Virus record (IMG/VR): IMGVR_UViG_3300025383_000133
Span: 1 to 20,509 of that record
Reading direction: 5' to 3' (one strand)
DNA from: a virus
Length of the DNA: 20,509 nucleotides
A model generated the notes under the pieces. The model was not told where the DNA came from. It made no database searches and saw only the letters and a list, made by a program, of their open reading frames with translations. The translations under genes and the position numbers were made by a program. Positions 10,730 to 12,453 of the stretch are shown in pieces. The number at the start of each line of letters is the position of its first letter. Within the stretch, counting starts at the first letter, position 1.

Positions 10730-10918
10730 TTAGCTTATGATTCTTGCCCCGTCATACTTTAACAGTAGAAAGCTAACCAATGGATGGTCTGCTGGTTCAA
10801 ACTGTATGTGATATACCGAGCCATAACTTCTAAATGGGTAGAACTTTACGCCTGACTGCTTTAGGTGTGCTGATACTTCCCTAAAATCTGATGCTGGAAT
10901 TACCATCTTAATTGCCAT
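10730..10918 (-). CDS. Hypothetical protein (62 aa)
   Basis: ATG 10918 has GGAG upstream and overlaps the end of the amber-interrupted gene (stop 10908) by 11 bases, so the two are linked. The sequence alternates strand and helix (MAIKMVIPASDFREVSAHLK, then GVKFYPFRSYG and VYHIQFEP). That would fit a small ferredoxin-like alpha/beta domain, but this is a shape guess only. No family recognised. Confidence 0.78.
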   Translation of the reverse strand: MAIKMVIPASDFREVSAHLKQSGVKFYPFRSYGSVYHIQFEPADHPLVSFLLLKYDGARIIS

Positions 10919-11183
10919 AAAGGTCTCCTGGTATCAAGGGTTTTATAGTAGCAGTATTGTCTTCGTCAATAACCAAATGACAGTTCTTGACTCGGATGCT
11001 ACCTTTGGTGCTGGGATTATCGGGAGTTTCTTTAGTGGACCACGGAACACTACAGTCAACGTGGTTTACATAATAGCTCTCACCCTTAGTTTTCAAGACC
11101 CACATGGGAATTGACGGATCGGTGAGGTGACCCTTGTTGAAATGAAATACGATATCTTTACAAATTAATTCAGTCTATGCCAT
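10908..11183 (-). CDS. Amber-interrupted gene: ATG-GCA-TAG start, 91 aa if UAG is read
   Basis: The frame begins with a strong ribosome-binding site (AAAAAAGGAG), 7 nt of spacing and ATG at 11183. Its third codon is TAG (11175-11177). After that, 88 further sense codons run without interruption to TAA at 10908. The part just after the TAG (TELICKDIVFHFNKGHL) reads like normal protein and runs smoothly into SIPMWVLKTKGESYYVNHVD and PWSTKETPDNP. Without readthrough, translation could only begin at the internal ATG at 11105 (65 aa), which has no good ribosome-binding site. The CUA tRNA at 12379-12453 could supply the missing residue. Alternatives are a nonsense mutation, a sequencing error, or use of the internal start. 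Function unknown. Confidence 0.75.
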
Positions 11184-11204
11184 TGTTATTCTCCTTTTTT
11201 GTAT

Positions 11205-11468
11205 TTAATCAATGTCGTATCGTGTAGAAAAATGATAGAGTCTATCACCGAAACATAGTTTAAGAAACATCTCTTGTTCTTCGCTGATAGTATCAATCTG
11301 TACTTCTTGGTTGCGATTTATACGAACGTTAGAATCTCGGATATAAGTAAACGTTGGGTAATCATCAGTTACTATATAACAGTTTGCATTAGTTCGTAAA
11401 AGCATATCTACATCATGTTTAGATATTTCTCCTAAGAGAGTCCAAACTTTAGTTACAACATGTTTCAT
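11205..11468 (-). CDS. Hypothetical protein (87 aa)
   Basis: ATG 11468 overlaps the TGA of the DUF3307-like gene (ATGA), and no strong ribosome-binding site is visible, so translation is probably coupled. The protein looks alpha/beta and soluble: HVVTKVWTLLGEI, LLRTNANCYIVTDDYPTF, VQIDTISEEQEMFLKLCFG. It ends at 11205, 22 nt before the amber gene's start. No family recognised. Confidence 0.77.
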   Translation of the reverse strand: MKHVVTKVWTLLGEISKHDVDMLLRTNANCYIVTDDYPTFTYIRDSNVRINRNQEVQIDTISEEQEMFLKLCFGDRLYHFSTRYDID

Positions 11469-11824
11469 TGAAATACCATTGCTACGATTGCGATATAAGT
11501 TAGTTGGTGTACTAACTGGTCAAATCCAGTAAGCTGCCAGAACTCATTGTGAGTAGTTGCTGTCCAACCCTTAAATCGGTTGATGTTCATCTTTGCGTAA
11601 TCAGTGAGATAGTGAACTGCAAACTCCATCAATGCGAGTGCCATAGCGACACCGGAGAGAGTGTAGAAGCAGAGAATAAAGAAGGTAGTGACAGCATGAA
11701 TACCGGAGTGAACCACACCACCCCAATGACCAAACGTTCCCTTGTTCTTCCACATGTAAGGTGGCTGATAAAAGAAGTCCCAGATAAAATGCTTAACTAG
11801 GAGTGCAGTTATCAGCCACAACAT
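11465..11824 (-). CDS. DUF3307-like integral membrane protein (119 aa)
   Basis: The pattern matches the DUF3307 family as I know it: KHFIWDFFYQP near the N-terminus, a Trp-Lys loop followed by HWGGVVHSGIHAVTT, a helix with EFAVHYLTDYAK, and a C-terminal FDQLVHQLTYI. Three to four membrane helices lie at about 1-15, 38-60, 62-80 and 100-118. The conserved His and Asp residues suggest a metal or enzymatic site in the membrane, but the family's function is unknown. The ribosome-binding site AAGGTAAC overlaps the 3' end of the peroxiredoxin gene, with which it is co-transcribed. Confidence 0.8.
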   Translation of the reverse strand: MLWLITALLVKHFIWDFFYQPPYMWKNKGTFGHWGGVVHSGIHAVTTFFILCFYTLSGVAMALALMEFAVHYLTDYAKMNINRFKGWTATTHNEFWQLTGFDQLVHQLTYIAIVAMVFQ

Positions 11825-11826
11825 AG

Positions 11827-12363
11827 TTAGTTACCTTGCAAATAAGCCAGGATAGATTCAGGTGAAGTTTCGCCATATGGATCAGTCTGGCAGTTATGCT
11901 CAATACCCGGTTCAATGAACCACTTTTCGATCACACCATTGTTGACAATGGCAGCATAACGCCATGAGCGAACGCCGAATCCTAGGTTGTCCTTCTGCAC
12001 AAGCATGTTCATCTGTGAAGTAAACAAACCAGAACCATCTGGAATGACCTTAACGTTTTCGATGCCCTGATCCTGTGCCCACTTGTTCATAACAAACGAG
12101 TCATTGACAGACATGCAATAGATGTCATCAATACCGAGAGCCTTGAACTGTTCAAAGTTATTTTCAAAGCCAGGAAGCTGATAAGTTGAGCAAGTTGGGG
12201 TGAACGCACCCGGAAGCGAAAATAAGATTACTCGCTTACCTGCGAAGTAATCATAAGAAGTAACGTCCTGCCAGCGATACGGATTCGATCCTTCAATGGA
12301 ATCGTCACGTACACGAGTCTTAAAGACTACAGCAGGAACAACAGTTGGTAGTTGGTCGATCAT
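11827..12363 (-). CDS. Peroxiredoxin, Prx5-like (178 aa)
   Basis: A thiol peroxidase of the Prx5 group that reduces peroxides. The active-site segment is SLPGAFTPTCSTYQLPG (49-65), with peroxidatic Cys58 and the supporting Pro/Thr of the PxxxTxxC motif (P51...T55). Further family features are the SVNDSFVMNKW segment (85-95) and Arg135 in SWRYA. Cys83 and Cys158 are candidates for a resolving cysteine. Length fits the family (about 160-180 aa). There is no signal peptide, so it acts in the cytoplasm. Phage genomes rarely carry it; a role in surviving oxidative stress during infection is inference. The gene starts 16 nt after the suppressor tRNA, with AGGAG before ATG 12363. Confidence 0.92.
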   Translation of the reverse strand: MIDQLPTVVPAVVFKTRVRDDSIEGSNPYRWQDVTSYDYFAGKRVILFSLPGAFTPTCSTYQLPGFENNFEQFKALGIDDIYCMSVNDSFVMNKWAQDQGIENVKVIPDGSGLFTSQMNMLVQKDNLGFGVRSWRYAAIVNNGVIEKWFIEPGIEHNCQTDPYGETSPESILAYLQGN

Positions 12364-12378
12364 AGTTTCTCCTAATAG

Positions 12379-12453
12379 TGGCGCGTCTGGCAGGATTCGA
12401 ACCCGCTATCCTGAGCTTTAGAGACCCGTGTGATGCCACTCAACCTCAGACGC
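12379..12453 (-). tRNA. tRNA with anticodon CUA (amber-decoding)
   Basis: A 75-nt cloverleaf with encoded CCA. The acceptor stem is a perfect 7 bp (12447-12453 with 12383-12389), the discriminator base is G (12382), and CCA is at 12379-12381. The T arm is GCGGG-TTCGAAT-CCTGC with a canonical loop. The anticodon loop is CTCTAAA (12417-12423), giving U33, anticodon CUA (12419-12421) and A37. The variable loop has 5 nt. Oddities are a weak D stem (one U-C mismatch), A instead of U at position 8, and a C-A mismatch at the base of the anticodon stem (27-43). G73 and U35 would suit glutaminyl-tRNA synthetase, but the charged amino acid is inference. Confidence 0.92.

Follow-up and report, generated by a model that had tools for sequence, protein, structure and literature searches.

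Translation of prfB, the gene for RF2, is conditional on the balance between termination and decoding owing to an early in-frame UGA. Other systems use a suppressor transfer RNA (tRNA). Phages of genetic code 15 translate TAG as glutamine (Q) and carry a Sup-CTA tRNA (PMC11210395, PMC10607447, PMC13037316), and in a synthetic feed-forward loop of E. coli a suppressor tRNA allows conditional nonsense readthrough in one regulated gene, an opal version included (PMC7969014). Suppressor tRNAs are also found in phages that keep the standard code: siphophage Summit encodes one with no identified target (PMC9022506), and in jumbo phage XacN1 two CUA tRNAs were reported for which the authors could identify no target (PMC5852040). 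The present analysis concerns a gene with TAG as its third codon, and an amber-reading tRNA gene upstream of it, in a 20.5-kb IMG/VR virus fragment (IMGVR_UViG_3300025383_000133, positions 1 to 20,509; this entire stretch is called the window). Comparison with related viruses makes it very probable that the two constitute a two-part gate, in which a dedicated suppressor tRNA controls one small operon through a start-proximal UAG. A ribosome that loads at the strong ribosome-binding site of the gene would release a dipeptide if the phage tRNA were missing or uncharged. Where the charged tRNA is available, the ribosome would instead insert an amino acid at the UAG and complete the protein, and probably the product of an overlapping downstream gene would be made as well. 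The outcome would be a coherent feed-forward (AND) switch, permitting expression only where and when the phage suppressor tRNA is transcribed, matured and charged.

An earlier note, based on the letters of the window, had described a gene consisting of a Shine-Dalgarno (SD) site, ATG, GCA, TAG, 88 sense codons and TAA, with an amber-reading tRNA about 1.2 kb away on the same strand. Reading the minus strand from 11183 to 10908 confirmed this order, AAAAAAGGAG-AATAACA-ATG-GCA-TAG, with 88 sense codons from there to the TAA, and the CUA anticodon was called by both ARAGORN and Rfam. The principal features are as follows.

11191..11200, minus strand: SD stretch AAAAAAGGAG, 7 nt 5' of the ATG, read from the sequence
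10908..11183, minus strand: putative amber-gated gene (the amber gene), product MA[UAG]TELICKDIVFHFNKGHLTDPSIPMW..., from translation and relatives
11183-11181, minus strand: start ATG, from the sequence
11180-11178, minus strand: codon 2, GCA, from the sequence
11175..11177, minus strand: in-frame UAG (TAG), codon 3, conserved, from the sequence and relatives
11103..11105, minus strand: first internal ATG (Met27), the nearest in-frame ATG, GTG or TTG past the TAG
10910-10908, minus strand: TAA terminator of the amber gene, from the sequence
12379..12453, minus strand: tRNA with CUA (amber-reading) anticodon, upstream of the amber gene, from ARAGORN and Rfam (RF00005, 39.8 bits)

The interval of about 1.2 kb is that from the 3' end of the tRNA to the ATG of the amber gene. 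The label 'Pyl' that ARAGORN gives to this tRNA is derived from the anticodon only. Within the window sequence, no in-frame ATG, GTG or TTG lies between the TAG and Met27.

With the readthrough product as query, 211 viral relatives were obtained; the best 80 of these, with protein identities of 62-94%, were read individually. The earlier note had expected a sense codon at position 3 of relatives; instead, the TAG itself was found, 79 of the 80 having an SD-preceded ATG, one to four codons and an in-frame TAG, with a conserved (I)E(Y/L)ACKDVVFHFNK sequence directly 3' of the TAG in all 79. Such a count is far above what chance would give. In a wider set of relatives, which overlaps partly with the 80, TAG was the nearest stop upstream of the conserved core in 75 of 86 rows; the few TAGs among the 75 that are not start-proximal belong to the L239-L258 clade, described below, in which a PTH2-like gene carries the gate (L numbers denote loci of relatives). 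When the fetched loci were scanned for SD-ATG, up to 8 codons, a stop and at least 55 open codons, the stop was TAG in 99 matches (82 of them from the amber gene family), TGA in 34 and TAA in 11. All 93 distinct amber relatives have an SD-like motif. No relatives of the amber gene family were found among bacterial and archaeal genomes (genome_contigs), and an origin from bacteria or a prophage was rejected on this ground.

The frame appears to be translated across the UAG region. The ratio of nonsynonymous to synonymous polymorphism (pN/pS) was 0.29 in the six codons before FHFNK and 0.14 from there to Met27, as compared to 0.22 after Met27, indicating that the frame is translated upstream of Met27. 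Residues F13-H-F-N-K17, H19, L20 and P26, all N-terminal of Met27, are invariant among relatives, and together with the purifying selection before Met27 they argue for translation across the UAG region. Because these invariant residues precede it, Met27 (ATG at 11105-11103) was rejected as the true start. The outcome that the earlier note had named as refuting its reading, homologues that all begin at the internal Met, did not arise, and dependence of expression on UAG decoding by the phage suppressor tRNA gains support from the comparative evidence. Codons and +4 bases were counted in the 93 distinct sequences, which are related and thus do not represent independent events: the base after TAG was A in 87, G in 6, and C or T in none, while after the TAG stops of long open reading frames (ORFs) in the same loci it was A in 85, T in 75, C in 58 and G in 35. 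A purine at +4 favours amber suppression in E. coli.

A structural finder for tRNAs of a set anticodon was run on 83 loci and located a same-strand CUA tRNA in the flank of 73, all 75 matches being on the strand of the gene; with nine control anticodons, the same finder gave matches in 1-13 loci each. In several loci the tRNA and the gene are separated by only 29-38 nt. Ten loci gave no match: in three the sequence breaks off shortly before the gene, in four a CUA tRNA lies at a greater distance in the record, in two the anticodon loop of the tRNA is an abnormal CCCTAA, and in one, Atu_ph07, the tRNA is UCA. Some CUA tRNAs were missed or misnamed by ARAGORN alone, for example as Arg(tct). Anticodon stems were compared for the CUA tRNAs of L002-L081 and L122-L261 and for the window tRNA. 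Positions 31-39 were unpaired, mostly as C-A or A-C, in 45 of 65 distinct CUA tRNAs (69%) but in only 5 of the 272 remaining tRNAs from these loci (2%); the window tRNA retains U-G at 31-39 and has C-A at 27-43. Anticodon stems of four pairs have been linked to stop-codon reading (PMC13092985), and the four-base-pair stem of the CUA tRNAs may possibly tune it here. Transfer-messenger RNA (tmRNA) genes were also called by ARAGORN near the amber module in L021, L022, L035, L043, L048, L049, L052, L054, L056 and L059.

In some lineages, the gene of the FHFNK family, to which the window gene belongs, has no TAG, and the stop lies in an adjacent gene for PTH2, a peptidyl-tRNA hydrolase, or for a PTH2-like protein instead (L014, L120, L173, L259, Phosso and the L239-L258 clade). 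The order in the L239-L258 clade is CUA tRNA, PTH2-like gene with MT[UAG], MK[UAG] or MTH[UAG], and FHFNK gene; in L121, the tRNA stands about 40 nt before an MKS[UAG] PTH2-like gene and the FHFNK gene is absent. Phosso has MKY[UAG] in PTH2, plus CUA tRNAs. In Atu_ph07, this PTH2 gene begins with MIGEHF[UGA] and a UCA tRNA is present, which is the only suppressor reported by its authors (PMC6102473). Matches to the Pfam family PTH2 (PF01981) were strong for Phosso (3e-20) and Atu_ph07 (2e-20) and weak for L014 (0.017), and a profile of six sequences matched solved PTH2 structures with E values down to 4e-9. The annotated start falls inside the PTH2 domain in both Phosso and Atu_ph07, the Pfam match of the readthrough product extending farther upstream, and the stretch from the early stop to the annotated start contains no start codon in frame. 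PHROG family phrog_34073 (77 aa) matches the PTH2-like products only from about residue 38, as would be expected if database entries are N-terminally truncated. A second in-frame TAG occurs deeper in the PTH2-like genes of L120 (3148 on) and L284 (3001 on; a 735-kb phage).

A start-proximal UAG was likewise found in PTH2-like genes of CBB, GAP32, SNUABM_19, ME3, Arash and uncultured genomes of 462 and 735 kb, in fusions of an HD-like domain (HDIGKP motif, from sequence) with PTH2 in XacN1 and RAS14, and in PTH2-like genes of XbC2 and a 595-kb genome. CUA tRNAs are present in all of these genomes. In RaK2, K64-1 and Hallingskeid, the PTH2-like gene lacks the early stop, and CUA tRNAs were likewise not detected. 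The stop thus matches the anticodon, with UAG and CUA in the isolates, UGA and UCA in Atu_ph07, and neither in RaK2, K64-1 and Hallingskeid. For XacN1, ORF364 is proposed as the target of the suppressor tRNAs, with its start shifted a few codons upstream to ATG AAG TAG ACC. In mycobacteriophages Alice, Myrna, ScoobyDoobyDoo and Cane17 (L285, L294, L295 and L330), the PTH2 gene adjoins a CUA tRNA and begins (A/G)TG TAG GTG, the annotated start being the GTG after the TAG. Comparison across these genomes shows that UAG, the frame across it and the matching tRNA have been kept together over wide phage diversity, that the gate, as read from the loci, sits on the FHFNK-motif gene or on the adjacent PTH2-type gene according to lineage, and that in Atu_ph07 the stop codon and the anticodon changed together to UGA and UCA.

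Several observations weigh against the proposed gate. Three sets of records depart from the agreement of stop and anticodon. L034 and L037 have the TAG, but the tRNA-like gene 180 nt upstream of the amber gene (L034:4744-4820, L037:1539-1615) has an abnormal CCCTAA anticodon loop, making its reading of UAG doubtful; it is possibly an altered suppressor. LR745206, a 634-kb genome, has MNN[UAG] and no confirmed CUA tRNA. In L370, a CBB-type relative in which no CUA tRNA was found, the SD-ATG leader of the PTH2-like gene (L370:2960-3330) ends in TAG in a frame that differs from that of the conserved body, because of either a frameshift or an assembly error. Furthermore, the SD spacing in the mycobacteriophages fits the GTG just past the TAG better, and the switch of stop and anticodon is known from one lineage, Atu_ph07, whose PTH2 protein, used as a query of IMG/VR for further UGA/UCA cases, returned Atu_ph07 alone. 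A promoter and terminator scan of the window gave no information on co-transcription of tRNA and gene.

The most serious alternative takes the UAG for a true stop, the ATG-N-TAG being a minicistron with a part in regulating or coupling initiation, in the manner of the lambda bar minigenes, and the protein being reinitiated at a non-standard codon. Start-stop ORFs of two or three codons with strong SD sequences would suit such a role, as would the rare initiator ATT, which follows the TAG immediately in 68 of the 93 distinct sequences, and the well-spaced GTG directly after the TAG in the mycobacteriophages. However, ACT, AAA, ATC, GTA and AAC also occur after the TAG, so that no initiator is shared. 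Any stop codon would do for a minicistron, yet the identity of the stop tracks the suppressor anticodon, and the phages without the early stop (RaK2, K64-1 and Hallingskeid) gave no CUA tRNA either. Because it also leaves the constant linkage to a CUA tRNA unexplained, reinitiation after a minicistron is considered unlikely.

Even less probable is that a specific residue, possibly a non-canonical one, is required at the N-terminus and is inserted at the UAG, as is the case for pyrrolysine or selenocysteine. A dedicated tRNA and an in-frame stop in few genes do resemble those systems, and in Phosso (L082) a class II aminoacyl-tRNA synthetase core gene (250 aa, 783-1535) lies 330 nt after a CUA tRNA (376-451) and could be a dedicated charging enzyme. 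Against this, the UAG is located in a poorly conserved leader at a variable distance from the core, the same gate moves between unrelated genes, and L014, L173 and fusion forms have a sense or start codon at the UAG site. The annotation tables of the complete genome RHph_I1_18 name no aminoacyl-tRNA synthetase; pyrrolysyl-tRNA synthetase is likewise absent from these tables, no profile search for it having been made, and the window is a fragment. We infer that the early UAG serves gating rather than placement of a special residue.

Genome-wide recoding was rejected. If code 15 applied throughout, this TAG would be one of many in-frame TAGs, and both the encoded CUA suppressor tRNA and the occurrence of code 15 in jumbo phages from metagenomes (PMC13037316) would fit. 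Nevertheless, these phages still end genes with TAG, as in 25 of 242 ORFs of RHph_I1_18, 69 of 837 long ORFs of the relatives' loci and 1 of 31 in the window, and a scan of the complete RHph_I1_18 genome showed the amber gene as the sole TAG-interrupted gene with homologues; no other TAG-interrupted gene was evident in the window. The probability of this explanation is negligible. Equally implausible is a sequencing error or decayed gene, rejected on the comparative data: TAG and CAG differ by one base, but separate assemblies as well as cultured isolates have the TAG at the homologous position, and purifying selection acts on both sides of Met27.

The genes listed next lie around the amber gene of the window, on its strand.

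11827-12363, minus strand: peroxiredoxin gene, between tRNA and amber gene
11465-11824, minus strand: DUF3307 protein gene, between tRNA and amber gene
11205-11468, minus strand: gene for an 87-aa protein, between tRNA and amber gene
10730..10918, minus strand: gene for a 62-aa protein downstream of the amber gene, SD GGAG, its first 11 nt, ATG included, shared with the 3' end of the amber gene

No strong terminator was seen in the interval from tRNA to amber gene (11205..12363). The 62-aa downstream gene is conserved, with a PLVSFL(L/I)LKYD motif and a similar small gene beside the amber gene of a relative (L030:5503-5742), and is probably co-translated with the amber gene. In certain relatives, the amber gene is immediately preceded by a homing-endonuclease-like gene, which is itself fused to a copy of the ATG-N-TAG start (MA#IEYS..., MS#IEYA...), as if it had been inserted at the conserved amber start.

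L010:3119-3793, L011:4310-4984, L039:4308-4994, L060 and L062:4326-4994: GIY-YIG-like, NUMOD3
L019:4223-4990: HNH

The window gene was considered as a PTH2 (PF01981) and rejected, as no profile matched; it encodes an FHFNK protein, which elsewhere is the neighbour of PTH2. Pfam gave no match for the window protein (P0001) or for a 190-aa homologue, and PHROG gave nothing for the window protein. An AlphaFold model of a 192-aa homologue had a predicted local distance difference test score (pLDDT) of 86; Foldseek found no match to it in the PDB at E<=0.001, VIA-align found middling ACT/ferredoxin-like similarity over residues 89-172 (Z up to 6.5) with the first domain barely covered, and BFVD matches were to uncharacterised phage proteins only. 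A WW-like pattern at residues 26-54 is offered as a lead only: W28, Y38, W48 and P54 are conserved within approximately this region, the model has predicted strands at 28-32, 35-39 and 41-44, and six of seven matches of a profile to PDB sequences were WW domains, all of them weak (E 0.19-0.85), Pfam giving none.

Efficient readthrough in the cell is inferred, as are the amino acid with which the tRNA would be charged and the timing of readthrough, which the earlier note placed at the point when the suppressor tRNA accumulates. That the gated PTH2 and FHFNK products deal with peptidyl-tRNAs or with stalled translation in infected cells is a tentative and somewhat doubtful proposal: the PTH2 identity of gated genes suggests peptidyl-tRNA handling, and PTH2 together with tmRNA genes near several relatives makes a role in stalled or dropped-off translation a weakly supported guess. 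With better confidence, it is probable that one PTH2/FHFNK operon is licensed through a start-proximal stop by a dedicated suppressor tRNA, in most cases one whose anticodon stem is loosened, in phages that are widespread and have hosts from several phyla, and that this natural class of switches, with a tRNA as the activator, explains many orphan suppressor tRNAs. If true, a natural tRNA would act as a dedicated translational activator. Suppressor tRNAs of phages that do not recode had no known job, and a conserved target is now proposed; the annotated starts of these genes, and families such as phrog_34073, are probably N-terminally truncated. Because the target is conserved and codon and anticodon change to match, the question is directly testable in cultured phages.

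No description of the pairing of a tRNA with an early stop was found in a search of open-access papers, and the described systems resemble it in part. In prfB, an early stop codon also conditions translation, but through a +1 frameshift and with no special tRNA, whereas the present phages keep to one frame and encode a suppressor tRNA cognate to the stop. In code-15 phages, a phage CUA suppressor tRNA likewise reads in-frame UAG in a standard-code host; TAG is in many genes there, while in the present phages it still serves as an ordinary stop, a single start-proximal UAG being carried by one gene or operon. PTH2 (PF01981) is related in another sense, as the amber-bearing gene is PTH2 or PTH2-like in many phages. 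XacN1 (PMC5852040) and Summit (PMC9022506) share the orphan suppressor tRNA, and for XacN1 only is a target proposed here. The synthetic loop (PMC7969014) has the same AND logic, its target being interrupted by a stop that the tRNA reads with the frame intact; that loop was engineered, while the phage case is natural and evolutionarily conserved, a compact genetic switch that synthetic biologists have already reinvented.
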